45,742 bases of DNA, from contig CANJRL010000006.1 in assembly GCA_947476675.1 (NCBI GenBank), forward strand, positions 1-45,742. The letters are read 5' to 3'. Every line of letters starts with the position of its first letter. Position 1 is the first letter of the stretch. The DNA is from Phycisphaerales bacterium (GTDB lineage: Bacteria > Planctomycetota > Phycisphaerae > Phycisphaerales > UBA1924). Made by a program: the position numbers and the translations under genes. The notes beneath the pieces were generated by a model. It worked only from the letters and a program-made list of their open reading frames with translations, did not search any database and was not told the origin of the DNA. Below are positions 756-26,219 of the stretch, piece by piece.

Positions 756-1211
756 ATGGCCTCCCCCCGCGACATCCGAAGACGGGCGCTGCAGGCGATG
801 TACCAGCTCGACGTCCGGGGCGAGGCCGACGCCGACGCCGTGCGCTCTTCGCTCGAGGAGGCCGATGACCTCGGCCCGGCCGAGCGCGACAAGGCATGGG
901 AACTGGCCCGCGCCGCGCACGCGGCCCGCCGCGACGCCGACGAGGCGCTCAAGCGCCTGGCGCCGGACTGGCCGGCCTACCGCCAGCCGGCGCTGGACCG
1001 GGCCATCATCCGCCTGGCCCACCACGAGCTCGCCACCGGCCGCGCGGCCCCCGCGATCGTCATCAACGAGGCCGTCGAACTCGCCAAGGAGTTCAGCACC
1101 GAGCGATCGCCCGGATTCGTCAACGCCGTGCTCGATCGCATCGCGAAGGCCGCCGCCGCGCCGCAGGACGCGTCGCCCGAGCCGCCCGCCTCGGCCCAGG
1201 AGACCGCCTGA
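756..1211 (+). CDS. nusB: Transcription antitermination factor NusB
   Basis: This 151-residue, mostly helical protein begins ASPRDIRRRALQAMYQLDV, the typical NusB N-terminal RNA- and NusE-binding helix. It also has the characteristic PAIVINEAVELAKEF segment (about 106-120) followed by SPGFVNAVLDRIA. NusB binds boxA RNA with NusE (ribosomal protein S10) in antitermination complexes on rRNA operons. The gene lies between ribH (7-bp gap) and ftsY (2-bp gap), and ribH-nusB adjacency is common in bacteria. The tail after residue 130 is Ala/Pro-rich and probably disordered. Confidence 0.94.
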   Translation: MASPRDIRRRALQAMYQLDVRGEADADAVRSSLEEADDLGPAERDKAWELARAAHAARRDADEALKRLAPDWPAYRQPALDRAIIRLAHHELATGRAAPAIVINEAVELAKEFSTERSPGFVNAVLDRIAKAAAAPQDASPEPPASAQETA

Positions 1212-1213
1212 CC

Positions 1214-2146
1214 ATGGGGCTGTTCGGGTCCGCGCTCTCGAGGATCAGGAAGGGCCTCGCCGCCACGCGCGAGGCGCTCGTCAAGTCGGTCAAGGACATC
1301 CCGTCGCTCTTCCGCGGTTCGCTGAGCGAGGAGTCCATCAACGACATCGAGGCCAGGCTGATCCGCGCGGACATCGGGGTCGCGACCACTCGGCGATTGA
1401 TCGACGGCCTTCGGACCGATTACCGCGCGGGCAGGATGACCCGGGGCGAAGACGCCCTCGCCTACCTCAAGCGCGAACTCAAGGCCATGTGGCCACAGGA
1501 GGTGCGCACCCTGCGCTTCGCCGATCAAGGGCCCACCGTCATCCTCGTCGCCGGGGTCAACGGCGCAGGGAAGACAACCACGATCGCCAAGCTCGCCCAC
1601 CGCCTGCGCGGAGAGGGCAGGGTCGTGCTGCTCGCGGCCTGCGACACATTCCGCGCCGGGGCGGTGCGCCAACTCGAAGTGTGGGCGGAGCGGCTGGGCG
1701 TCGAGGCGGTCAAGGGCCAACAAGGCGGGGATCCGGCATCGGTTGCGTTCGACGCGTGCCAGGCGGCGGTCGCCCGTGCTGTCGACGTGCTGATCGTCGA
1801 CACCGCCGGCCGCCTGCACACCCAGGATCCTCTCATGCGGCAACTGACCAAGATCCGGGACGTCGTGCAACGCAGGATTCCCGGGGCGCCGCACGAGGTC
1901 CTCCTCGTGCTCGACGCCACGATCGGACAGAACGCCATCCGCCAGGCCGAGGAGTTCACCAGGGCGATCGGCGTGACCGGTCTGGTGCTCACGAAGCTCG
2001 ACGGCACAGCGCGCGGCGGCGCGGTGGTGGCGGTGAGGCAGGGGCTGAGCCCCCCGGTGAAGTTCGTCGGCGTCGGCGAAACACTCGACGACTTCGAGGC
2101 GTTCGATCCCGATGCGTTCGTGGAGGCGCTGTTCGAGGAAGACTGA
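1214..2146 (+). CDS. ftsY: Signal recognition particle receptor FtsY
   Basis: FtsY is the SRP receptor GTPase, which delivers ribosome-nascent chain complexes to the Sec translocon at the inner membrane. The 310-residue protein has a helical N domain (about 1-95) and a G domain with the P-loop GVNGAGKTTT (114-123), DTFRAGAVRQL (144-154), a DTAGR motif and TKLDGTARGG. The GVNGxGKTTT loop and lack of an M domain separate it from Ffh. The ATG at 1214 is chosen because it begins MGLFGSALSRIRKGL, a normal short FtsY N terminus, just 2 bp after the nusB stop. The frame stays open upstream, but only as the shadow of nusB. The long acidic A domain of E. coli FtsY is absent. Confidence 0.96.
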   Translation: MGLFGSALSRIRKGLAATREALVKSVKDIPSLFRGSLSEESINDIEARLIRADIGVATTRRLIDGLRTDYRAGRMTRGEDALAYLKRELKAMWPQEVRTLRFADQGPTVILVAGVNGAGKTTTIAKLAHRLRGEGRVVLLAACDTFRAGAVRQLEVWAERLGVEAVKGQQGGDPASVAFDACQAAVARAVDVLIVDTAGRLHTQDPLMRQLTKIRDVVQRRIPGAPHEVLLVLDATIGQNAIRQAEEFTRAIGVTGLVLTKLDGTARGGAVVAVRQGLSPPVKFVGVGETLDDFEAFDPDAFVEALFEED

Positions 2147-2670
2147 CCCTTGCGTCCGATTTCGACGGCTTTTCCGCGGCGGACTTAGCGCATTTCACAT
2201 ATCGCGCTCACCATCTTGACGGGGCGCGCAGATACGGTCCCCACCCTCCCAAGCCTTTTGCCGTCCCACCTCTCTGGGTTCCCAACTCCGGACACACACA
2301 CGATGCCTCAAGAAATCCGCGCCGCCGGGAACGGTGTTGCGCTCCGGACAATCTGGGCAAGGTGCGGCTCCTCGGCGCCGTCCGAAAGGCTGCTCCGCGC
2401 CCGCCGCGAGGGTGGCACGGTGCGGAAATCCCTCAACGTCAAGCGCCGTCGAAAAATCTCTCATCGACTCGGGTTGTTTGTCTCGACAAGCGTGGAAACG
2501 CGTGGTAGTCTTCCTGTCGATCGTTGCCTGCACAGCAACGTGGATCTTCTCAACTCTGCAAGCGTGTTTCGGGCCTTCCGTTCGCGCCGTTCGTACGTGG
2601 GATTGGGTCTCGTCGGCCGCCGCGGTGAACACCGCGCCGCCGGCTGAGTCAAATCGAGGCGTTTCTTCCT
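2147..2670. other. Gene-free stretch between ftsY and a terminator; possible noncoding RNA
   Basis: About 520 bases without a convincing gene. Frames stay open here (for example plus 2216-2647), but third codon positions are not G/C-biased as in real genes of this window and no protein family is recognisable. Base composition is visibly less GC-rich than in the neighbours. The stretch contains potential hairpins such as GTTGC/GCAAC near 2525 and GCGGT/ACCGC near 2630. It also has a weak promoter-like pair (TCGACA at 2483-2488 and TAGTCT at 2506-2511, 17-bp spacer), and a strong plus-strand terminator follows at 2671-2712. I could not match it to tmRNA, RNase P RNA, SRP RNA or 6S RNA. Confidence 0.4.
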
Positions 2671-2712
2671 CGCCGCCCGGTGTGCGAAAGCACGCTGAGC
2701 GGCGTTCTTTTT
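2671..2712 (+). terminator. Strong intrinsic terminator, plus strand
   Basis: The outer stem CGCCGC (2671-2676) pairs with GCGGCG (2699-2704). The inner stem GTGC/GCAC is capped by a GAAA tetraloop, and TTCTTTTT (2705-2712) follows directly. Nothing coding on the plus strand ends just upstream: ftsY ends 525 bases earlier. It therefore ends either a long ftsY trailer or a separate small RNA. Confidence 0.7.
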
Positions 2713-2759
2713 GGGCCCCTCCGGTCGCGTCGGCCTCCCACCCTGGCCGCCGCCACGAA

Positions 2760-15896: not shown

Positions 15897-15969
15897 GGGC
15901 AGTTAGCTCAGTTGGTAGAGCACAGCACTGAAAATGCTGGGGTCCCCGGTTCAAGTCCGGGACTGCCCA
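15897..15969 (+). tRNA. tRNA-Phe (anticodon GAA)
   Basis: The full cloverleaf is visible. The acceptor GGGCAGT (15897-15903) pairs with ACTGCCC (15962-15968). The D arm is GCTC-AGTTGGTA-GAGC, the anticodon stem CAGCA/TGCTG encloses the loop CTGAAAA with GAA at the anticodon position, and the T arm is CCCGG-TTCAAGT-CCGGG. The discriminator is A at 15969 and no CCA is encoded. The last 19 bases overlap the 3' end of the glycosyltransferase gene on the other strand. Confidence 0.96.
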
Positions 15970-17057
15970 TTTTCTTCGGTTCCATCGGTGATCAGCCAGG
16001 GCCACAGAAGGCCCGGCCGTCGCGCGCCGGCCTCGGCGGCGTCGAGCATCGGGCCGGGGCTGAGCGTGCCGATGAGCGCGGCTTCGGCGCGGGGCGGGTC
16101 CGCGACGAGCGGCGTATATCGCTCCGCGAGAGCCTGCCGGATGGCCCACTCGTGCTTGCCCGGCGCGACGATCGCGACGGTTCGCGGCGGCCTGTCGCCG
16201 AACTGGGCGTCGAGCGCCTCGCGGCAGGCGGCGAGGCCGGTGAAGCGGTCCCACTGATCCGGCGTCATCGGCGTGCGCGGTTGGGCGGCGAGGGAGGTGG
16301 CCAGGTCTGCCATGCCGAGGTCGAATCCTCCGTTTGCGGACTCCTTCGCAGCGATTACCCGGTAGCGCGCAATGTGGCGCTCGATCTCGGCGTTGCGGAC
16401 CGCTTCGGGCGCGTAGCGCTGGGCCGTCCAGCAGTTGTTGCGCACGAGGTTGCGGACGATGCGGTTGAAGTCGCGTCCGGCGGTGGTCTTGTCGTGGATG
16501 ACGCGGAAGCGGCGATCGAAGGCGATGCGGCAGCCGCGGAGGATCATCCGCGCTGCCAGGTCGTACTCCTCGGCGTAGTACTCGAAGGCCGGGTCGTAGC
16601 CTCCGAGTTCCCGGAAGAGGTCGGCGCGGATGGCGGCGCCGCAGCCGATGAAGACTTCGGGCAGTCCCCCGTCCTCTCGGGGCGTCGAGCCGTCGGGGCG
16701 CGGGGTGAGGAAGATCTCGGCGGCGATCGCCGCGACGTCGGGCGCTACGTTGCGGATGGCGTCGAGATGGCCGAGGGATGCGGGCCATGAGTCGTCGTCG
16801 AGCATGATGAGCCAGGCGCTGCGCGGGTCGGCGGCGTGGGCGGCATGGTTGCGCGCGGCGGCGGCGAGGTTGCGATCCAGGCGCAGGGTGCGGACGGGCA
16901 CGCCCGAGGTCAGCGAGCGCGGGGTGCTCACGGCGTCGGCGGAGGCGTTGTCGGTGACGATCACCTCGGCCTCGTGCGGGCCCAGCGAGGCGATGGCGTC
17001 GAGCGTCCTCGCGAGGGCGGCGTGCCGGTCGCGGGTGGGGATCACGTAGGTGATCAT
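15951..17057 (-). CDS. Glycosyltransferase family 2 protein
   Basis: The 368-residue protein begins ITYVIPTRDRHAALARTL, the classic GT2 N terminus. It then has EVIVTDNASAD (nucleotide binding, about 36-46) and MLDDDSWP (about 88-95), where the aspartates form the metal-binding DxD-type motif. FIGCGAAIRADLFRELGGYDPAF and EEYDLAARMILRG follow, as in rhamnosyl- and other GT-A transferases. It transfers a sugar from an NDP-sugar to a surface glycan in the cytoplasm. The C-terminal third (after about 250) is unrecognised. The ATG at 17057 lies 5 bases after the stop of the upstream sugar kinase gene, so the two form an operon. Its last codons are the complement of tRNA-Phe. Confidence 0.88.
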   Translation of the reverse strand: MITYVIPTRDRHAALARTLDAIASLGPHEAEVIVTDNASADAVSTPRSLTSGVPVRTLRLDRNLAAAARNHAAHAADPRSAWLIMLDDDSWPASLGHLDAIRNVAPDVAAIAAEIFLTPRPDGSTPREDGGLPEVFIGCGAAIRADLFRELGGYDPAFEYYAEEYDLAARMILRGCRIAFDRRFRVIHDKTTAGRDFNRIVRNLVRNNCWTAQRYAPEAVRNAEIERHIARYRVIAAKESANGGFDLGMADLATSLAAQPRTPMTPDQWDRFTGLAACREALDAQFGDRPPRTVAIVAPGKHEWAIRQALAERYTPLVADPPRAEAALIGTLSPGPMLDAAEAGARRPGLLWPWLITDGTEENGQSRT

Positions 17058-17062
17058 GGCGT

Positions 17063-18712
17063 TCACGACGCGATGAGTTCGGTCGGGCGCGGCGTGAGGC
17101 GGGTGTCGGCCGGAGCGTAGGCGAGCGTGGCGCCGGCGAGACGGGCCAGGCTCTGCCGGAGGTCGGCGGCGGTGACGGGGATGTTCCCGAGCCGCTGGGC
17201 CTCGCACGCGGCCGCGAGCGAGCCGAGGAAGGCGGAGGCGATATCTCCGGCGTTGGCCGCGAGCGCGAGCGTGGCGGCGGCGAGGAGGGCGTCGCCGCAG
17301 CCCAGAGGGTCGATCGGGTAGCCGCAGAGCGCGGGCACGTGCTCGCCCCGGACGCGGGAGCGGTTGGGGCCGGCGTCGTCGGCGGCGTCAGCGCCGGAGA
17401 TGGGCTCGAAGGCGATGAGCCCGTCGCCCCCGAGGGTGACGAAGAGGCGGCGGCTCTGGGTCTGCGCGAGAACCTGCCATGCGACGGCGGGGAGTGATTC
17501 GTTGAAGGAGCGGGTGGCGCCTCGGGCCTCGGGCTCGCTGGGGGTGAGCAGGTCGAAGCGGCGGAACGCGAGCAGCGGCGCCTTGGGGCCGGAGACGTCG
17601 CCGGCGAGGATGTTGACCGAAGGGCGAAGGCGCACGGCGAGTTGATCGATAAGGCCGGGCGTGAGCATCCCGTTGCCGAAGTCGGCGATGATGGCGGCTT
17701 CGAAGCCCCCGGCGATGTCTGCGGCGGCCCTGACGAGGCGCTGCCGCGCGGCGCTGCTCAGCAGGAGCGGCGAGAGGTTGTTGACCTTCATCACCTTCTG
17801 CGTGCCCACGAGGTAGCGGTGCTTCTCCGGGAGCGGCTGGGCCATGGGGACGCCGAGGACCTCAACGCCCTCGGCGGCGAGGCGGAGGCGCAGGCCGTCG
17901 TCGCCGGTCTCGGGCAGGGCCGTGAGCAGAACCGGGCAGGCGCCCAGGGCGGCGAGGTGCCGGGCGATGATGGCGGCGCCTCCCTCGTAGCGGCGGCTCT
18001 CCAGAGGGCGGAGGGTGAGGACGGGGGACTCGGAGGCGACCTCGGGCTGGTCGCACAGGAAGTACTTGTCGATGATCGTCTCGCCGACGACGAGGACCTT
18101 CTTGCCGCGGAACGCGGAGATGACGCCGGTGAGGCGGCCCCCGTCGAGTTCCGGGCGGCCCAGGAGTTGCACGAGCCGCGCGTGGTAGGGGTCGACGCTG
18201 CGCTCCAGAGCCGCGATAAGAGCGGTGGAGGAGAAGACGACGTCGCCGGAGGAGAAGACGACCTGGCCCCCGGCCGCCTCGACCGCGGCGCGCTCCTGCG
18301 CGAAGCGCGGGTCGTTGTTCGCCTCGTACTCCTGGCCCTTGATGTAGACGTCGGGCTGGACTTCGGCGAGGAGTTCCGCGGCGGTGGCGCGCTGGTCGAT
18401 GCACACCCAGTCGACGCAATCGAGTTCGGCGAGATTGTCGGCGCGGAGTTCTTCGGGGATGAGCGGGGCGCCCTCTCGCTTGGTGAAGGCGCTGTCGCCG
18501 GTGATGGTCACGAGCAGGATGTCGCCGTGAGCCTTGGCCTGGCGGAGGTGGCGGATGTGCCCGGGGTGGACGATGTCGAAGCAGCCGTGGCATTGCACGA
18601 CCCGTTGGCCGGCCAGGCGGGCCTCGTGTCGGCGGGCCAGGAGATCACTCAGGGAGAGGATCTTGGGCCTCGCGGTCGGGGGGCTGGGGCGGCGGCCGGG
18701 CCGTGGGGGCAT
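17063..18712 (-). CDS. Two-domain sugar nucleotidyltransferase / PfkB-type kinase (HldE-like, domains swapped)
   Basis: Residues 1 to about 165 form a cytidylyltransferase-like nucleotidyltransferase with CHGCFDIVHPGHIRHLRQAK (41-60), where HPGH is the HxGH motif, and DVYIKGQEYE. Residues about 180-549 form a ribokinase/PfkB kinase with VLVVGETIIDKYFLC, YEGGAAIIARHLAALG and the signature DPLGCGDALLAAATLA. Both activities match HldE, which makes ADP-D-glycero-beta-D-manno-heptose. In E. coli HldE, however, the kinase is N-terminal and the transferase C-terminal. The exact sugar is therefore inferred. The start used is the ATG at 18712; another in-frame ATG is at 18745. It is divergent from the GT-B-like gene and is followed by the GT2 gene after 5 bases. 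A GT9 gene at the window's right edge is consistent with heptose use. Confidence 0.85.
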   Translation of the reverse strand: MPPRPGRRPSPPTARPKILSLSDLLARRHEARLAGQRVVQCHGCFDIVHPGHIRHLRQAKAHGDILLVTITGDSAFTKREGAPLIPEELRADNLAELDCVDWVCIDQRATAAELLAEVQPDVYIKGQEYEANNDPRFAQERAAVEAAGGQVVFSSGDVVFSSTALIAALERSVDPYHARLVQLLGRPELDGGRLTGVISAFRGKKVLVVGETIIDKYFLCDQPEVASESPVLTLRPLESRRYEGGAAIIARHLAALGACPVLLTALPETGDDGLRLRLAAEGVEVLGVPMAQPLPEKHRYLVGTQKVMKVNNLSPLLLSSAARQRLVRAAADIAGGFEAAIIADFGNGMLTPGLIDQLAVRLRPSVNILAGDVSGPKAPLLAFRRFDLLTPSEPEARGATRSFNESLPAVAWQVLAQTQSRRLFVTLGGDGLIAFEPISGADAADDAGPNRSRVRGEHVPALCGYPIDPLGCGDALLAAATLALAANAGDIASAFLGSLAAACEAQRLGNIPVTAADLRQSLARLAGATLAYAPADTRLTPRPTELIAS

Positions 18713-18743
18713 GGCAGGGTTATCGGCTGCTTTGGGCGGGGTC

Positions 18744-21323
18744 ATGAGGGCGCGGCGCCTGGGCCGGAAAAAACGCCGAGAGGCGCGGGGGCGGGCCGAT
18801 CTTGATGCCGTGGCGAGCACCCCCCTGGCGGCGACGGTCGGTGCGGCGGCCGGGTGGTCGCGCGCCGAGGTGGTCGCTCTGGGTCGGACAGGGAACGCGT
18901 GGGCATTTGTGCCGCTGGCGCTCGGGCTGGCGGCTCCGGGGGTGGAGGACGACGAGGTGCGTCTGCTCCTGGCGGCGGCGTACGGCCGGCTGGGGCTGCG
19001 GACGGCGGCGCTGGAGCAGTTCGGGTCGCTCGGGTCCGGCGTTGCGGCCCAGGCGGCGGGGCTGGAGGAGATGCTGCGCAGGCTACCGCCGGATGAGGCG
19101 TCGCTGGAGGAACGGGAATCGGTCTTGCGTGGGAACCTTGACGCGCTGGCGGAGCGAGGCGAAGGGAGCCTCGATCTGCGGGGCCTGATTCCCTCGTGGC
19201 GCGAGTCAGCGGCGGAGACGCGGTGCTTTCGCGCCGCCGGCGGGAACATGCTCAGGCGCCGCAGGGGCGCGTGGGTCCGGTTCGCTGATGATGCGGGGGC
19301 GGCGGAGGCGGCGATCCCGTCGCCGAGCGGCGCGGGCGATGCGGAGCGGGTGACCCCGTACTTCTTTGAGGGGATCGATCCGCCGTGGCTGTTCCGCCGC
19401 GCAGCGCTGTGCACGCCGCCGAATCCTGATGGGTCGGAGTGCCGGTTGACGGTGGTGTGCCCGAGCGGGGACGACCTGGTCGAGGCGCTCTCGCTCGCGG
19501 ATCTGCGCGAGTGGATCGCCCAGCCGAGAACGGAGTGGTTCGTGGGCGAGGGCGCCTCGGAGCGATTCGCCGCGGCGCTGCGCGGGAGGTTCGATGAGCG
19601 GATCGGCAACCGCGTGGCGGTTTCGCCGCTCCCGGGCGAGCGGGTGGGCGCGGGGGCGATTGTTGGCGGGGCGCTCGAGGAGCAGGCGGGGCTGCAGCGG
19701 TCGCTCGCGGCGATTATGGCGGAGGTCTATTCCGGGCGCGACCGAGCGTGGTGGGCGCGGCGGTATCGCGAGGCGTTCGGGGGCGGCGCGCCCCTTCGGG
19801 TGCTGATCCCGAGCAGCAGGTTCACGCGGTTCGTGCGGTTCTCGGCGGAGGATCTGGCCGATGCGCTGCGCGGGCTCGGGTGCGAGGCGCGGGTGCTGAT
19901 CGAGCCTTCCGCGGCGTCGCAGTTCTGCTCCGTGGCGCACCTGCGGGCCTACGCGGAGTGGCTCCCCGACCTGGTCATCATGGTGAACCACACGCGGTCG
20001 ATGCACGCGGCGAAGACGCCGCGCGGCGTGCCGTTCGTGACCTGGATCCAGGACCGCGTGGCGGGGCTGTTCGACGAGGCGGTCGGCCGCGGCCTCGGCG
20101 AGGTGGATTTCGTCGCCGGGCACCTCTTCCCCGAGTTGTTCGATCGGTTTGGGTACCCGCGCGCCCGCCGGTTGCCCGCGGCGGTCATGGTGAGCGCGCG
20201 GAAGTTCCACGACGGCGAGGCGACCGAGGAGCAGCGGCGGCGCTTCGAGTGCGAGATCGCGTTCATCAGCAATCACGGCGAGACGGCCGAGGCGATGCGG
20301 GGCCGGCTCATGCACTCGGCCCCAGCGGCGCAGCGCCCGGCGCTGGCGCGGATCGTGCCGGAGATCGAGGCGGGGCTCGAGCGGCTGCTCGAAGTAGGCC
20401 TCCTGCATCACGCGGAGCCTGCGGAGGCCGGGCCGACCGGCCCGGGGGGCGGCGGGCCGATCAGCGCTTCGATCGACGACCTGTGCGCCGGGGCGTGCGC
20501 GCCGCACGTGCGCAAGGGCGAGGAGGCCGCGGCAACAGCCGCGATCGGCGCCTCGTTCGCGTACCCGATGTTCGAGCGGATGCTCAGGCACCAGATGGCC
20601 GAGTGGGCGGCGGCGCTGTGCGAGGCGAGGGGCTGGCGGCTCCACCTCTACGGCAGGGGCTGGGAGGCGCACCCCCGGCTCGCCGCGCACGCGCGGGGCG
20701 TGATCGAGCATGGGGACGACTTGCGGGCGGCGTACAAGTGCGCCGGGGTGTCGCTGCACGCGGGGATGGGAGGCTGGACGCACCAGCGGGTGATGGAGGC
20801 GGCGCTCTCGGGAGGGTGCACGATCGCGCGGCTCAAGGCCGAGGATGTCTGGGCTCTGGAATGGTGGGCCCAGAACTCGATCGCGGCCGAGCCCGGGCTC
20901 GAGACCACCGACGAGCCAGGGTTCCCTCACTACGGGTTCCGGTACGCGCCGGTGGCCGACCACTGGCAGTCGATGATGGTCGCCGGTCTCTGTCAGCGCT
21001 TGGGCGTGACGCCCCTGCATTACGCGTACGGCTGGCAGGCGCTCTCCCCTGCGCAGATCGCCGCGCCCTGGGCGGACAACGCGGGCAGGCCGGTCCCGAT
21101 GCGGGCCGCGTGGCTGCTCGGCGACCCGTCGGAAGCGGGCTACTGGTCGCGTGAGTCGTTCGATCGCGCGGCGGCGGGGGTTGTCGAGTCGCGCGAGCGT
21201 CGGGCGTCGCTCTCGCGGTGGCAGCGCGAGGCGGCGCTGGAGTGCTTCACCTACGACCGCTTCGCGCGCGACCTGCTGGCGATGGTGCGCGAGGGGGTCG
21301 AGGGCGCCGCGCCGAGGTCGTAG
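18744..21323 (+). CDS. Large GT-B-like glycosyltransferase with an uncharacterised N-terminal half
   Basis: The 859-residue product starts with an Arg/Lys-rich leader and an Ala/Leu-rich helical region resembling TPRs (about 40-130), then a domain I do not recognise. From about 350 on it looks like a GT-B or CgeB/DUF3880-type transferase: VLIPSSRFTRFVRFS, DALRGLGCEARVLIEPS, VPFVTWIQDRVAGLFD, then WRLHLYGRGWEAHP, CAGVSLHAGMGGWTHQRVME and AALSGGCTIARLKAEDVW. The last block matches the acceptor/donor-site pattern in which a peripheral sugar transferase picks the NDP-sugar. Acceptor and donor are unknown. The ATG at 18744 is preferred, but one at 18711 would overlap the start codon of the divergent kinase gene. 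Its 3' end overlaps the next, opposite gene by 73 bases. Confidence 0.7.
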   Translation: MRARRLGRKKRREARGRADLDAVASTPLAATVGAAAGWSRAEVVALGRTGNAWAFVPLALGLAAPGVEDDEVRLLLAAAYGRLGLRTAALEQFGSLGSGVAAQAAGLEEMLRRLPPDEASLEERESVLRGNLDALAERGEGSLDLRGLIPSWRESAAETRCFRAAGGNMLRRRRGAWVRFADDAGAAEAAIPSPSGAGDAERVTPYFFEGIDPPWLFRRAALCTPPNPDGSECRLTVVCPSGDDLVEALSLADLREWIAQPRTEWFVGEGASERFAAALRGRFDERIGNRVAVSPLPGERVGAGAIVGGALEEQAGLQRSLAAIMAEVYSGRDRAWWARRYREAFGGGAPLRVLIPSSRFTRFVRFSAEDLADALRGLGCEARVLIEPSAASQFCSVAHLRAYAEWLPDLVIMVNHTRSMHAAKTPRGVPFVTWIQDRVAGLFDEAVGRGLGEVDFVAGHLFPELFDRFGYPRARRLPAAVMVSARKFHDGEATEEQRRRFECEIAFISNHGETAEAMRGRLMHSAPAAQRPALARIVPEIEAGLERLLEVGLLHHAEPAEAGPTGPGGGGPISASIDDLCAGACAPHVRKGEEAAATAAIGASFAYPMFERMLRHQMAEWAAALCEARGWRLHLYGRGWEAHPRLAAHARGVIEHGDDLRAAYKCAGVSLHAGMGGWTHQRVMEAALSGGCTIARLKAEDVWALEWWAQNSIAAEPGLETTDEPGFPHYGFRYAPVADHWQSMMVAGLCQRLGVTPLHYAYGWQALSPAQIAAPWADNAGRPVPMRAAWLLGDPSEAGYWSRESFDRAAAGVVESRERRASLSRWQREAALECFTYDRFARDLLAMVREGVEGAAPRS

Positions 21324-22363
21324 ATCGGGATCACCGGCACGCCGCGGGGCCCGAAGATGGCCCTGGCCCGCGCCAGGAGCAGGCGCTCGTGGGCGTCGGA
21401 AGAGATCACCACGGCATCGGGGCGAACCGACGGATCGACGGGGCGCGCGACCGCAGCGCCCAGCATGGTCGCGGCACGGGGTCGATCGTCGAGGATCGCC
21501 TCGATCACCAGGCCCCGCGCTCGGAACGGCCGGAGCCCGATGCGGCGCGTGTGGGCCCCCGCGCCGAAGAGGGCGATTCGGCGGGCGCCGAGGGCGACGC
21601 AAAGAAGCGCAGCGCGATCAACAAGAGCAGGGACCAGGCGCGGGTCGTTGCGGATGATCGCGGGCGGAGGCGGGGGAGGGGGGGGCGGCACCCGCGCGAG
21701 CGCCGTGCCGATCGTCAGCGTCTCCTTGGAGATCCAGCCGGCGTCGCGGAGCGCCGCGAGCAGGTGAGGGAGCGCGCGGGGATCGGCGTGCACCCCATCA
21801 TGGACGCACCCGCGCCTGGGCGCTCCGCGAGCGTCCGCGAGGGCCGCGGTGACGTCGAGGACGGAGGCGCCGCGGCGGCGCGCCGACTCGTGGAGCCCTT
21901 CGTTGAAGCCGCGGGCGGCCGCGGCGCGCTGGGCGAAGGCGCCGGCGACGGGGGTTTCGGGGTTCAGGCCCGGGTCGATGCGCGTGGGTGGAGGCACGGC
22001 AAGGAAGGCGAGCGGACGACCGCCGACAATGGCCCGGCCCGCGTCGACGTACCGCCTCGCGAGCGTCGCCCCGGCCTCGCGGCAGGCGCCGGCGGGGGCG
22101 TGCCTGACGACGTGGGCGCGGCAATCAATCTCGCCGAAGGCCAGGAGGACCGGCGTCGCCCGGCGTGCGCCGCGGAGCACGCGGCGGATGATCTCGCGAA
22201 CCGGGTGCGAGGGCGAAGCGACGGAGTGCGCGAGGAAGGGCCCGAGGTGGCGCACGTCGATGCCGGGGAGAGCGCAGACCGGCCGCGCCGGGTGCCTCGC
22301 GCACAGGCCGTGGAGACCGGTGAAGACGGAGACGTGGCTGTCGCCGATGACGAGGAGCGGCAC
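21251..22363 (-). CDS. SGNH hydrolase-like protein with a C-terminal Rossmann-like module
   Basis: This 370-residue protein has two domains. Residues 1 to about 220 look like an SGNH/GDSL hydrolase: LLVIGDSHVSVF with GDSH (7-10, Ser9 nucleophile), FGEIDCR (76-82, block III) and HDGVHAD (188-194, Asp189-x-x-His192). Such enzymes remove or transfer acyl groups on sugars. A nine-proline linker (226-234) leads to a Rossmann-like domain (262-349) with ALFGAGAHTRR, AILDDRPR, AVVISSDAHE and GVPVIPIYD. The same domain ends the next two proteins. The gene lies 7 bases after the GT-A-like gene, so they are probably one operon. It is likely a sugar O-acylation or deacylation enzyme of the glycan locus; which direction is unknown. 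Confidence 0.75.
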   Translation of the reverse strand: MPLLVIGDSHVSVFTGLHGLCARHPARPVCALPGIDVRHLGPFLAHSVASPSHPVREIIRRVLRGARRATPVLLAFGEIDCRAHVVRHAPAGACREAGATLARRYVDAGRAIVGGRPLAFLAVPPPTRIDPGLNPETPVAGAFAQRAAAARGFNEGLHESARRRGASVLDVTAALADARGAPRRGCVHDGVHADPRALPHLLAALRDAGWISKETLTIGTALARVPPPPPPPPPAIIRNDPRLVPALVDRAALLCVALGARRIALFGAGAHTRRIGLRPFRARGLVIEAILDDRPRAATMLGAAVARPVDPSVRPDAVVISSDAHERLLLARARAIFGPRGVPVIPIYDLGAAPSTPSRTIASRSRAKRS

Positions 22364-22370
22364 GGGGCGC

Positions 22371-23498
22371 TCAGGCGTGGACGAGCCGTCGATCGGGCTC
22401 GGGCGTGGCGGGCTCCGCGCCGTACAACCTCATCACGGGGATGCCGGCCTCGCGGAAGATGGCCGAGTTGTCCCACAGCCTGTCCTCGACGGAGTTCGCA
22501 GAGAGGACGACGGCGCGGACGCCTATGGCCAAGGCTCGTTCGCGGGAGACGACCGGGATGTTCCAGGGCCGGCGGCCGTGGTTGGTCGGGTTGTCGTCGA
22601 TGATGCAGGCGATGCGGACCGGCGGCTCGCAGAGGGCGGCGACGCCGATGCGGGTGTGGAAGCCGAAGCCATAGAGGGCGACGGGGTCGAGGCTGAGGTC
22701 GGAGCACCGCCGCAAGCCGCCCGAGATCGCCGCGGCGAAGGCGTTGTCGAGGGCGATGTAGGCCATGCGCTGCTCGGCGAGCACGAGCATGTCCGCCCGG
22801 TCGTCCGGGGGCGTGAACCGAGGCCGGCGGTCGGCGCCGGGCCCCGAGGGCTCGTGCCCCGGGAAGCCGGCGTGGGCGCGGGCGACGTAGAGGAAGCAGT
22901 CCTGCAGGTCGTTGTTCTTAACGCTCTCCCAATAGGCGGGCTGCGCCGCGCCGGTGCGGGTGAAGTGCTCGTGGTAGTGCGTGAGGTCGGGCCTCTCCCA
23001 CAGGGCGCCCATGCCCCTGGCGAGCCAGAAGAGCTCGTTGTCGGCGTAGTTGTGGTGGTAGCCGGCGCACATGCCGCCCGTGCCGCCGTACATGGTGTCG
23101 AACCAGGCGCGGCCGAGGAAAGGCGAGCCGCAGTACCGCCGCGCTGCGAGATAATCATCGCCGTGGGGCTGCATCACCCCGAAGGTGTCGGGGAAGCGGC
23201 CGAGGAACTGCTCGGCGAGATCGTGCGCGGAATAGTTGGGGTCTGGGAGCATGTCGTCCCCGCCGCAAACCACGATGGGGCAGGACTTCGGGACGATCTC
23301 GCGGCAGAGGATGTTGCTGCTCGCCGGCCACCCGGGGTAGCGGTCGCGCCAGACGGCGATGTCGGCGGGGATCTCACCTCGCTCATAGTTCTGCAGGACG
23401 GCGGTCTTGTAGCCCATCTCGCGCCACACCGGGAGGACCTTGCGGCACTTCTCGGGGTTGGCGCTGGGGATGGCGAACCAGACGTCGTGGGTGGGCAT
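22371..23498 (-). CDS. GT-A-like glycosyltransferase with a C-terminal Rossmann-like module
   Basis: Residues 1 to about 240 of this 375-residue protein resemble a GT-A transferase: VWFAIPSANPEKCRKVLPVW and GYKTAVLQN at the start, and CGGDDMLPDPNYS (78-90) where Asp81-Asp82 could bind the metal-nucleotide. The family is not certain. Residues 273-360 form the shared Rossmann-like domain: ALYGFGFHTRIG, ACIIDDNPTNHG, AVVLSANSVED and GIPVMRLYG. It is divergent from the FkbM gene at 23698 across a 199-bp spacer that holds a GC hairpin. It runs into the SGNH gene after 7 bases. Aromatic-rich stretches (AGYHHNYADNELFWLARG) suggest an unusual acceptor pocket. It probably adds a sugar in the surface-glycan pathway. 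Confidence 0.65.
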   Translation of the reverse strand: MPTHDVWFAIPSANPEKCRKVLPVWREMGYKTAVLQNYERGEIPADIAVWRDRYPGWPASSNILCREIVPKSCPIVVCGGDDMLPDPNYSAHDLAEQFLGRFPDTFGVMQPHGDDYLAARRYCGSPFLGRAWFDTMYGGTGGMCAGYHHNYADNELFWLARGMGALWERPDLTHYHEHFTRTGAAQPAYWESVKNNDLQDCFLYVARAHAGFPGHEPSGPGADRRPRFTPPDDRADMLVLAEQRMAYIALDNAFAAAISGGLRRCSDLSLDPVALYGFGFHTRIGVAALCEPPVRIACIIDDNPTNHGRRPWNIPVVSRERALAIGVRAVVLSANSVEDRLWDNSAIFREAGIPVMRLYGAEPATPEPDRRLVHA

Positions 23499-23540
23499 TC
23501 GGGCTCCGGGAGCGAGGAGTCCTCGGGAGCATCGACGACC

Positions 23541-23571
23541 CGGGCCCCCGGGCTTGAGCCCCGGGGCCGGA
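23541..23571. repeat. GC-rich inverted repeat in the divergent spacer
   Basis: The arms CCGGGCCCCCGGGC and GCCCCGGGGCCGG flank a TTGA loop and pair almost perfectly. The repeat sits between the divergent genes starting at 23498 and 23698, where it could be a shared operator or a transcription block. Pure composition is an alternative explanation. Confidence 0.4.
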
Positions 23572-23697
23572 ACTTGAGCGCCCCGGCGGGATTTGGTGAA
23601 GAAGCGCTTGCCTGGGAGGGGCGGCGCTCATGGGGGGGCGCCGGGGTCGCCGATAAGCGGTTGCGGACGCCCCCACGCCCCGCGCCGAGGAAGTGCC

Positions 23698-24765
23698 ATG
23701 CGCCTGTTCGAGTACGACGCGTACGCCTCGATCACCCGCTTCATCGACCGCGATGAGCCGCTGGTCATCGTCGATGTCGGCGCCAACGAGGGGCTCACGG
23801 CGGAGCGGATGCTGGCCGAGTTCCCCAACGCCACGGTGCACGCGTTCGAACCGTCGCCCGAGACCTTCGAGCGGCTGAGGGCGAGGGCGGAGTTCGACCC
23901 GCGCATCCGGCCCGAGGCTCTGGCCTGCGGATCGCGCGAGGGGGAGGCCGACTTCCACGTCACCGCCAACCACTGGTGTTCATCCGTCCTGGCGCCGAGC
24001 GCCCTGGGCAAGCGGTACTACGGCGACTGGTACGAGACCAGGCGCGTGCTGAAGGTCCCGATGGTCACGCTCGACGGCTGGGCCCGCCAGCGCGGCGTCG
24101 ATCGCGTCGACTTCCTCAAGGTTGACGCCCAGGGCTACGACCTCGAGGTGCTCCGCGGCGCGACGCGAGTGCTCGGCTCGGTGAGGGCGATCAACTGCGA
24201 GTGCCAGTTCGCGGCCGAGTACGAGGGGTGCGGCACATTCTCGGAGGTCGACCTGTTCCTGCGCGGGCAGGGCTTCGCGCTGCACCAGGTGCACGAGGTC
24301 TGGTCCAAGGGCGACGAGGTGCAGACCTCGTACGCCGACGCGCTGTGGGTGCGGGCCGAGGTGCTGGAGCGATTCCGCGGCCGCAAGGACATGCCGAACC
24401 TCTCGCCCAAGGGCCGGGTGGCCCGGGCCCTGGCGCGGGCGGCGGCGCAGGGCGCGACGAGGGCGGCGCTCTTCGGGTGCGGGCAGCACACCAGGCGGCT
24501 CGCGGAGCATCTCGACGCCATGCCGCTCCCCGTGGTGGCGATCATCGACGACAACCGCGCCCTGCACGGGGGGCGCATCGCGGGGCGTCCCGTAGCGCCC
24601 CAGAGCGCGATCGAGGAACTCGGCGTCGACGTGGTGGTGCTCTCCTCCGACGCGCACGAGGCGGCGCTGTGGCGCGCCAGCGCCGGGCTCAGGGCTCGCG
24701 GGGTCGCCGTGATCCCGTTGTACGGCCGCCACGAGGAGGCCGCCCCCGCCGGCGCGGTGGCGTGA
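23698..24765 (+). CDS. FkbM-family methyltransferase with a C-terminal Rossmann-like module
   Basis: Residues 1 to about 240 of this 355-residue protein form a SAM-dependent FkbM methyltransferase: IVDVGANEGLTAERML (24-39) is the SAM loop, HAFEPSPETFERL follows, and DFLKVDAQGYDLEVLRGA (138-155) is the FkbM signature. These enzymes O-methylate sugars or hydroxyls. Residues 254-343 are the shared Rossmann-like domain (ALFGCGQHTRRLAEHL, VAIIDDNRALHGG, VVVLSSDAHEAALW, VAVIPLYG). The ATG at 23698 has GAGGAA upstream at suitable spacing. It begins a run of three FkbM genes; its stop overlaps the GTG start of the next gene (GTGA), so the run is translationally coupled. Confidence 0.85.
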   Translation: MRLFEYDAYASITRFIDRDEPLVIVDVGANEGLTAERMLAEFPNATVHAFEPSPETFERLRARAEFDPRIRPEALACGSREGEADFHVTANHWCSSVLAPSALGKRYYGDWYETRRVLKVPMVTLDGWARQRGVDRVDFLKVDAQGYDLEVLRGATRVLGSVRAINCECQFAAEYEGCGTFSEVDLFLRGQGFALHQVHEVWSKGDEVQTSYADALWVRAEVLERFRGRKDMPNLSPKGRVARALARAAAQGATRAALFGCGQHTRRLAEHLDAMPLPVVAIIDDNRALHGGRIAGRPVAPQSAIEELGVDVVVLSSDAHEAALWRASAGLRARGVAVIPLYGRHEEAAPAGAVA

Positions 24766-25493
24766 CCGGCGCGGCCGCCCGGGCCTCGTGCCTCTCGTCC
24801 AGCGCTACGGCGTTCTATGCGCGGCTCGCGGATGCGGGGTATTCGCCGGCTGTGATCGCGGACGTCGGCGCCTCCAACGGCGCGTGGTCGGTCACCGTCG
24901 CGGAGCATTTCCCGCGCGCCGCATTCCATCTCATCGAGCCCCTTTCCCGGGCTCGGGACGACTACTCCCGGGTGCTCGCGTGGGCGATGCGAGAGCACGG
25001 GTCATTCGTCCTGCACGAGTGCGCCGCCGGAGAGGCCGACGGCGAGGCCGACCTGTGGCTCCACCCCGAGGGCGTCGGCAGCACCCTGGTGCGCGCCTCG
25101 GCGAGGCCCGGCGAGCGCCGCCGCGTGCCTGTGCGGACGCTCGACTCGCTGGTTGGCTCCGGGGACATGCCCCAGCCCTCGCTCGTCAAGATCGACGTGG
25201 AGGGGGCAGAGTTGGCGGTGATCCGAGGAGGGGGGCGGACCATCGGCAACGCCGACATCGTGCAGGCCGAGGTGCTCCTGCGGCCGAAGGCGGGGGGTGG
25301 GGAGCCGCTGGCGCACGAGGTGATCGAGGCGATGATGTGCCTGGGCTTCGTGCTGGTGCAGATCGCGGGGTCGTGGCGCAGGCCGGACGGGGAGTTGCTG
25401 CTCGCCGACGCGATGTTCGCGCACCGGCGCGCGGTGGGACGGTTCGCGGCGGCGGGCGAGCCCGCGTGGGAGCCGCAGGAAGGCGAGGGCTGA
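24762..25493 (+). CDS. FkbM-family methyltransferase, second of three
   Basis: The 243-residue protein shows the FkbM pattern IADVGASNGAWSVTVAEHFP (SAM loop), HLIEPLSRARDDYSRVL, LVKIDVEGAELAVIRGG and ADIVQAEVLL. It lacks the C-terminal Rossmann-like module of its upstream neighbour. Its order of motifs and the ending GFVLVQIAGSWRRPDGELLLADAMFAHRR closely parallel the next gene, so the two are probably tandem paralogues. The GTG at 24762 overlaps the preceding stop as GTGA; no better start is visible before the SAM loop. It probably O-methylates a different position or sugar of the same glycan. The next gene follows after 3 bases. Confidence 0.85.
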   Translation: MTGAAARASCLSSSATAFYARLADAGYSPAVIADVGASNGAWSVTVAEHFPRAAFHLIEPLSRARDDYSRVLAWAMREHGSFVLHECAAGEADGEADLWLHPEGVGSTLVRASARPGERRRVPVRTLDSLVGSGDMPQPSLVKIDVEGAELAVIRGGGRTIGNADIVQAEVLLRPKAGGGEPLAHEVIEAMMCLGFVLVQIAGSWRRPDGELLLADAMFAHRRAVGRFAAAGEPAWEPQEGEG

Positions 25494-25496
25494 GCA

Positions 25497-26219
25497 ATGA
25501 CCACGGTCGAGTCATTCGCGGGGATCGAGCGGGCGTTCTTCTCGAAACTCGGCGACCTCGGCTTCGCGCCGCGCTGCGTGCTCGACATCGGGGCGTCCAA
25601 CGGCTCGTGGTCATCGATGATCGCGGAGGTGTTCCCGGAGGCGAGGTTCGAGATGTTCGAGCCTTTGGCCGGGCGGCGCCCCGAGTACGACGCCGGGCTC
25701 GCCTCGGTCATGGCCTCGCGCTCGAACCTGCGACTCCACCCGGTGGCGCTGGGATCGGAGAACGGGGAGGCGGCCTTCTGGTCAGAGACCGCCGGGGTCG
25801 GCAGTTCGCTGCTCGTCGGCAACGTGCCGGCGGAGGAGAAGATCACCGTGCCGGTGCGCCGGCTCGACGATGCCGTCCGCGATGCGGGGATCGCCCCTCC
25901 GGAGATCATCAAGGTCGATGTCCAGGGCGGTGAGATGCAGGTGCTCCGGGGCGGGCGCGAGACCTTCGCCGCCGCGGACGTGCTGCACCTCGAGACGTGG
26001 CTCCGCCGCGGCTACGGCCAGCAAACCCCGCTGCTCCACGAGCTGATCGACGCGCTGAGGCCGATGGGCTTCGTGCTGGTGCAGTTCGGCGACTTCTGGC
26101 GCCACCCCGATCAGGAACTGGTCAGCGTCGACGCGTTCTTCGCCGCCCGGAGGCTGATCGAGAGGCTGCGCGAGCAGCGCCGCGGCTTCCCGTGGCCCGG
26201 CAACTGGTGGGAGGGCTGA
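25497..26219 (+). CDS. FkbM-family methyltransferase, third of three
   Basis: The 240-residue protein carries VLDIGASNGSWSSMIAEVFP, EMFEPLAGRRPEYDAGL, IIKVDVQGGEMQVLRGG and ADVLHLETWL, the FkbM fold and signature. It ends GFVLVQFGDFWRHPDQELVSVDAFFAARR, very like the upstream paralogue. The start ATG lies 3 bases after the previous stop. It ends 10 bp before the stop of the opposite-strand ccoS gene, so the two clusters converge here. Its function is assigned only as SAM-dependent sugar or small-molecule O-methylation. Confidence 0.87.
   Translation: MTTVESFAGIERAFFSKLGDLGFAPRCVLDIGASNGSWSSMIAEVFPEARFEMFEPLAGRRPEYDAGLASVMASRSNLRLHPVALGSENGEAAFWSETAGVGSSLLVGNVPAEEKITVPVRRLDDAVRDAGIAPPEIIKVDVQGGEMQVLRGGRETFAAADVLHLETWLRRGYGQQTPLLHELIDALRPMGFVLVQFGDFWRHPDQELVSVDAFFAARRLIERLREQRRGFPWPGNWWEG

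Follow-up and report, generated by a model that had tools for sequence, protein, structure and literature searches.

Three neighbouring genes of a Phycisphaerales bacterium encode proteins that end in the same Rossmann-like domain, joined in each case to a different head: an SGNH/GDSL-like hydrolase (P0001), a putative transferase with a predicted GT-A fold (P0002) and an FkbM methyltransferase (P0003). The genes lie on contig CANJRL010000006.1 of assembly GCA_947476675.1, and the whole contig (45,742 nt, hereafter the window; assembly size 2.72 Mb, completeness 92%) was analysed. Further copies of the domain were found on many other enzymes in other genomes. The explanation we favour, although tentatively, is that the tail serves as a shared handle for a nucleotide-linked, probably uridine diphosphate (UDP)-linked, intermediate; the ligand, its UDP linkage and the recruitment of substrate are what we infer.

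The three open reading frames (ORFs) were confirmed at the coordinates and on the strands first reported for them, as was the central claim of the original prediction, that a common tail is carried by unlike heads. Pairwise BLASTP between tails gave E-values of 1e-8 to 1e-15 at 30–45% identity, and tail-to-tail local scores lay 12.8, 18.4 and 24.1 standard deviations (SD) above 1000 shuffles, whereas heads compared with each other scored as unrelated sequences do (−1.0 to 0.1 SD). Residues identical in all three tails include the G-x-G-x-HT loop, DD, PV, VV-S, E and Y. The homologous segment is nearer 95 residues than the 88 or so originally proposed. A weak fourth match elsewhere in the same genome (contig C16, E 0.04) was not counted as a copy of the module.

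The identities first proposed for the heads held to differing degrees. The FkbM assignment of P0003 is clear (PF05050, 85.4 bits against a cut-off of 22.7; TIGR01444, 98.3 bits against 37.7), and this head was the sole part matched in searches of PHROGs and phage. By profile the SGNH assignment of P0001 is weak (PF13472, 23.1 bits against a cut-off of 32.9, E 1.2e-4), and the expected catalytic blocks can be read in the sequence, with GDSH close to the N-terminus and DGVH towards the head's C-terminal end. A run of nine prolines between this head and the module (approximately 21662-21688, minus strand) is probably a linker. No family was matched by the P0002 head in the Pfam scan; its GT-A assignment came from an AlphaFold model built from 22 homologues (predicted local distance difference test, pLDDT, 88.1), which Foldseek matched to the GT-A enzymes B4GALNT1, SunS, mannosylglycerate synthase and EXTL2 (E 3.5e-5 to 1e-3). 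As modelled, the head has a GT-A fold, and its transferase activity is putative. The same model also matched the C-3'-methyltransferases KijD1 and TcaB9, which we read as a match of the tail alone because the root-mean-square deviation over the two domains was about 15–17 Å.

We searched 150 related genomes with the P0003 tail as query and found the module in 78, namely 74 of 90 genomes of the window's family and 4 of 60 from the rest of the order. Copies were strongly clustered: 86 of the 150 listed had another copy within 15 kb, against approximately 2 expected by random placement. Twenty loci, picked partly for multiple copies, were fetched and their tails located by profile. The heads at these loci fell into clusters without BLAST links between them (GT4, the P0002 GT-A head, FkbM, an unknown cluster 3, GT2, Methyltransf_24, SGNH, TylF and class-I methyltransferases), the last of which carried the tail at the N-terminus. 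The FkbM, GT-A-head and SGNH triplet was kept, with order and orientation, in three other genera (L037, L038 and L039).

A wider contig scan with a profile from a 14-row alignment (1166 genomes searched overall, nearly all Planctomycetota) gave 32 loci, mostly in Phycisphaerales, with outliers in Lentisphaerae, Deltaproteobacteria, Omnitrophica and Chitinivibrionia. At a Lentisphaerales locus (L085), four tail-bearing proteins stood close together (an unknown head, GT4, GT2 and a sulfotransferase), while a Lentisphaeraceae contig (G514:C70) encoded eight in about 22 kb: TylF, GT4, asparagine synthase, GT4, a glycosyltransferase-like protein, a class-I methyltransferase with two tails, an unknown head and another glycosyltransferase-like protein, three of the tail matches being weak (26–29 bits). 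A sulfatase-fold protein (L265) and a radical S-adenosylmethionine (SAM)/B12 protein (L084) were further heads. The expectation that the tail would occur on other enzymes elsewhere was therefore borne out, and the heads with a family match were mostly of glycan-locus type and covered approximately ten chemistries. Matches across the phylum at E 1e-6 to 1e-9 to NeuD-like, CapD-like and other Rossmann domains lacked the HT signature; we took them for distant members of the superfamily and excluded them. We also observed three tandem module copies in one Lentisphaerae gene (L078, 4993-7041, plus strand), with adjoining genes encoding more distant Rossmann-like domains.

The position of the module varied from C-terminal and N-terminal to internal and tandem. 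Such adaptor-like variability, and the presence of one tail on side-by-side enzymes of no common chemistry, would also be expected if the tails were docking modules that bind each other or a common partner and so hold the island's enzymes together as a metabolon, the pocket being inherited and a ligand unnecessary. Rossmann-like domains often dimerise, which counts for this main rival explanation; we consider it rather unlikely in view of the pattern of conservation and the tail phylogeny described below.

AlphaFold modelling of 40 tails returned an alternating alpha/beta Rossmann-like domain with high confidence (pLDDT 93.7; predicted template modelling score, pTM, 0.86), leaving the earlier reading of a common fold standing. 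Against the PDB, the best Foldseek matches were the N-terminal domain of the UDP-quinovosamine 4-dehydrogenase 3NKL (1.3e-4) and an extra domain of the FkbM protein 2PY6 (1.4e-4), followed by Rex repressors (3.5e-4), with VioB and KijD1 lower. Profile-profile comparison by hhalign, using families drawn from the same genomes, gave 97.3% probability to the C-terminal domain of C-methyltransferases (PF08484; E 1.8e-11, 90 of 101 columns) and 96.7% to the PglD/NeuD N-domain (E 3.5e-10, 49 columns), the latter with GxGxH and DD in register. Rex, in a set that includes three SucD-like rows, reached 93.4% (E 2.6e-7), and the succinyl-CoA synthetase (SucD) control 0.8%. The likeness to PglD and to NAD-binding proteins noted in the original prediction was thus recovered. 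That prediction recognised no named family for the tail, and Pfam and NCBIfam gave none above cut-off for the window tails. In particular, the window proteins did not match Methyltransf_14 (PF08484, cut-off 23.5 bits), to which 9 of the 40 tails matched weakly and one Omnitrophica relative matched above cut-off (45.7 bits). PglD_N (PF17836) was matched by 24 of the 40 tails at E < 0.1, and relatives in L043 (30.1 bits) and L076 (44.7 bits) exceeded its cut-off. No hexapeptide (left-handed beta-helix acetyltransferase) domain was found in any tail-bearing protein scanned with Pfam. On these profile comparisons, we place the tail as a Rossmann-like domain nearest to sugar-nucleotide-related domains, the window copies not being scored members of PF17836 or PF08484.

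The place of Rex among the best structural matches, and its hhalign score, allow a regulatory reading, in which NAD(H) or a nucleotide sugar would act on the tail as an effector and every enzyme of the island would be tuned through it, much as Rex senses NADH with its Rossmann domain. We rank this third and regard it as improbable, given that the sugar-nucleotide domains give stronger profile matches than Rex does, and that the tail has GxGxHT and DD instead of the GxGxxG and DxD of Rex. The Pfam scans also found no DNA-binding domain.

A signature of GxGxHT, DD, SS...E and Y was kept whatever the head. Over 74 tails, conservation was 100% for Asp40, 99% for Asp41, 97% for Gly16, 99% for Gly18, 92% for His20 and 93% for Thr21, and in the second half 96% for Ser72, 89% for Glu77 and 95% for Tyr98. 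Most of it persisted in tails from other phyla and on other heads (first Asp in 24 of 24, second in 18 of 24, His and Ser each in 21 of 24). The best-conserved columns fall where a ligand would be expected: in the loop that follows strand 1, where strand 2 ends, and beyond strand 4. The remainder of the domain drifts (approximately 28–65% identity), and this pattern argues against docking as the tail's main role. In the PglD-type acetyltransferase Pcryo_0637, Asp40 binds the ribose and Asp41 the uracil of the UDP-sugar; the PglD equivalents are Asp35 and Asp36, and PglD has His15 in place of a residue lying against the pyranose (PMC8040287). The DD and H of the tails align in register with those of the PglD/NeuD family by hhalign. 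In printed alignments, 3NKL and neisserial 4M98 have the second Asp, whereas PerB (DAD) and VioB (DN) do not. The first two use UDP-sugars, PerB a guanosine diphosphate (GDP)-sugar and VioB a thymidine diphosphate (TDP)-sugar. The DD pair therefore suggests a uridine ligand, a prediction from a small sample.

Taken as the favoured explanation would have it, a Rossmann-like domain able to bind a nucleotide or nucleotide sugar was fused to several enzymes of surface-glycan islands in Phycisphaerales and a few other lineages. Each enzyme of an island would grip the same nucleotide-linked (probably UDP-linked) intermediate through its tail, which would bring it to the enzyme's own catalytic head for methylation, acyl or ester chemistry or sugar transfer and, elsewhere, sulfation or amidation. 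That the pocket is kept independently of head chemistry and host argues for one common ligand. In this form the shared handle of the original prediction remains the best explanation, and the targeting or regulatory role which that prediction gave it is, like nucleotide binding, a putative one. By analogy, the glycan may be both built and decorated on a nucleotide carrier, one domain on its assembly and tailoring enzymes acting as a pathway-wide recognition handle like an RRE domain; we hold this extension to be unlikely.

Several observations weigh against a handle of this kind. A glycosyltransferase head should have a binding site for its donor already, which leaves no obvious need for another nucleotide site. 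Sulfotransferase and asparagine-synthase heads normally act without UDP-sugars unless the acceptor is nucleotide-linked, and the weak point of the explanation is that transferase, sulfotransferase and amidotransferase heads would need a handle only with such an acceptor. The known product of the island's HldE-like enzyme would be linked to adenosine diphosphate (ADP) rather than UDP. The profile match to PglD/NeuD spans half of the domain, and against the PglD_N cut-off of 23.4 bits the P0003 tail scored 15.5 bits (E 0.027) while those of P0001 and P0002 gave no match.

We also assessed how closely each head is bound to its tail. Of the homologues of the P0003 head, the closest 11 (approximately 42% identity or more) carried the tail or, in one case, followed it within one ORF, and all more distant homologues found (38% identity or less) lacked it. 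The tail accompanied 5 of 5 SGNH homologues in the 150 genomes. For the GT-A head it was present in 20 of 21 homologues, the tail-less one (42% identity) being encoded on a separate contig (L136, 1417-2217, minus strand). The original prediction would have been refuted had each tail been a usual part of its head family and unrelated to the others, and it stood this check: the tail is no fixed part of the FkbM family, and although the association is close to fixed for the GT-A and SGNH heads, the tail itself is shared. The tail tree, which rests on few columns and has many open forks, contained two deep groups, SGNH with Methyltransf_24/TylF-type heads and GT4, GT2, GT-A and FkbM with cluster 3 (split support 100/99). 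Head type required 20 changes on this tree compared with 46.9 in shuffles; the fusions are therefore for the most part ancient, several joinings or swaps having happened independently. That tails follow head type and not locus is a further point against docking.

The same association could reflect fusion history without shared function, the tail being an old part of one enzyme family, dispersed through local duplications and exchanges of heads and now mostly structural. The tracking of head type and the near-fixed tails of the SGNH and GT-A heads are what such a history would leave. However, the signature residues hardly vary from phylum to phylum or from one chemistry to another, and such a pocket would not survive in a decaying linker domain; the tail-less FkbM relatives, and fusions at the N-terminus, at the C-terminus and in tandem, likewise speak against it. 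We consider this account very unlikely.

The three module genes belong to a glycan island (Table 1) in which the P0003 gene is divergent from the other two and is directly followed by two module-free FkbM genes in tandem (24762-26219, plus strand). Module loci repeatedly adjoined homologues of the window's large glycosyltransferase, HldE-like enzyme and GT2 in the fetched set, those of the large glycosyltransferase-like ORF in most of its loci. The true start of the HldE-like ORF is probably near 18740, and the encoded nucleotidylyltransferase domain (residues 341-446) precedes the PfkB kinase (503-810), whereas HldE proteins usually have the two domains in the opposite order. The C-terminal 60 residues of the GT2 form a conserved extension (IVxxGK ... 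LSPGPMLDA) present in relatives; they appear tail-like by eye, but did not match the module profile and were rejected as a copy. At the edge of the island, a tRNA gene (15897-15969, plus strand) overlaps the opposite-strand GT2 ORF at its 3' end, and is a possible insertion point.

Table 1. Module copies, module-bearing genes and neighbouring genes of the glycan island in the window.
Feature	Position	Strand	Evidence
GT2 glycosyltransferase of the same island, with its own C-terminal extension	15951..17207	-	PF00535 3.3e-10
HldE-like cytidylyltransferase + PfkB kinase ORF	17063..19609	-	PF01467 1.8e-14, PF00294 2.3e-12
Large glycosyltransferase-like ORF, start uncertain	18534..21323	+	PF13524 E 1.7e-4
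SGNH/GDSL-like hydrolase head + C-terminal module (P0001)	21251..22363	-	PF13472 E 1.2e-4, GDSH/DGVH blocks
Module copy 1 (P0001)	21311..21610	-	GAGAHTRR / LDDR / ISSDAHE / IY; profile 79.7 bits
GT-A-fold (predicted) putative transferase head + C-terminal module (P0002)	22371..23498	-	AlphaFold pLDDT 88.1 + Foldseek
Module copy 2 (P0002)	22413..22715	-	GFGFHTR / IDDN / LSANSVE / LY; profile 112.4 bits
FkbM methyltransferase head + C-terminal module (P0003)	23698..24765	+	PF05050 6.7e-24, TIGR01444 5e-28
Module copy 3 (P0003)	24430..24732	+	GCGQHTRR / IDDN / LSSDAHE / LY; profile 115.6 bits
FkbM methyltransferase without module	24762..25493	+	PF05050 4.3e-14
FkbM methyltransferase without module	25497..26219	+	PF05050 1.1e-14

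If the tail does bind a common intermediate, its presence would mark enzymes of glycan pathways and predict which of them act on one substrate, and glycan engineers would gain a portable part. The surface glycans of Planctomycetota have received little study, and such binding would point to their being assembled on a shared carrier, nucleotide-linked or of another kind. Were the tail a docking module instead, the members of a glycan-synthesis complex could still be recognised from their sequences.

Among known systems, the PF08484 C-methyltransferases (TcaB9, KijD1 and MtmC) similarly place a Rossmann-like C-terminal domain on a sugar-nucleotide tailoring enzyme, and the Glu after strand 4 aligns with that of the tails. 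However, their domain is confined to one enzyme family whereas the tail occurs on many enzymes; their first loop is GAxxKG and not GxGxHT, the second Asp of the DD pair is an addition of the tails, and the N-terminal half of PF08484 is absent here. Three tandem SAM methyltransferases that share the PF08484 C-domain wholly or partly (L205, 8707-12448, minus strand) were not taken as a parallel case, all being methyltransferases. The N-domain of PglD, NeuD, VioB and PerB (PF17836) has the G-x-G-x-H loop and the D-D after strand 2 in register with the tails, but stands at the N-terminus of acetyltransferases of the left-handed beta-helix type, while the tails are mostly C-terminal, are without an acetyltransferase domain and differ in their second half (SSD..E, LY). 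As a separate observation, a NeuD/PglD-type acetyltransferase gene at L054 adjoins, by eye, a motA-like flagellar gene (1117-1854, minus strand, and 1946-2725, plus strand).

The Methylobacillus flagellatus FkbM methyltransferase 2PY6 likewise has an extra Rossmann-like domain fused to FkbM (profile E 0.0069), although the matching stretch is near the chain N-terminus (residues 50-107); in the literature that names it with FkbM, its function is not the subject. Our literature search found no description of one tail common to neighbouring glycan-island enzymes, which is weak evidence of novelty as subscription papers lay mostly outside the search. In how it would work, the tail most resembles the RRE domains of the enzymes that tailor ribosomally synthesized and post-translationally modified peptides (RiPPs), in which one small domain on many unrelated enzymes of a pathway recognises a common substrate; the fold and the substrate differ, and no homology is claimed. 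Sharing of a domain across a pathway is thus known for peptide natural products, and we know of no such shared handle in the making of bacterial surface glycans. The PF08484 enzymes and 2PY6 already offer related domains and single fusions; what appears to be new here is one tail on neighbouring glycan-island enzymes of approximately ten chemistries.

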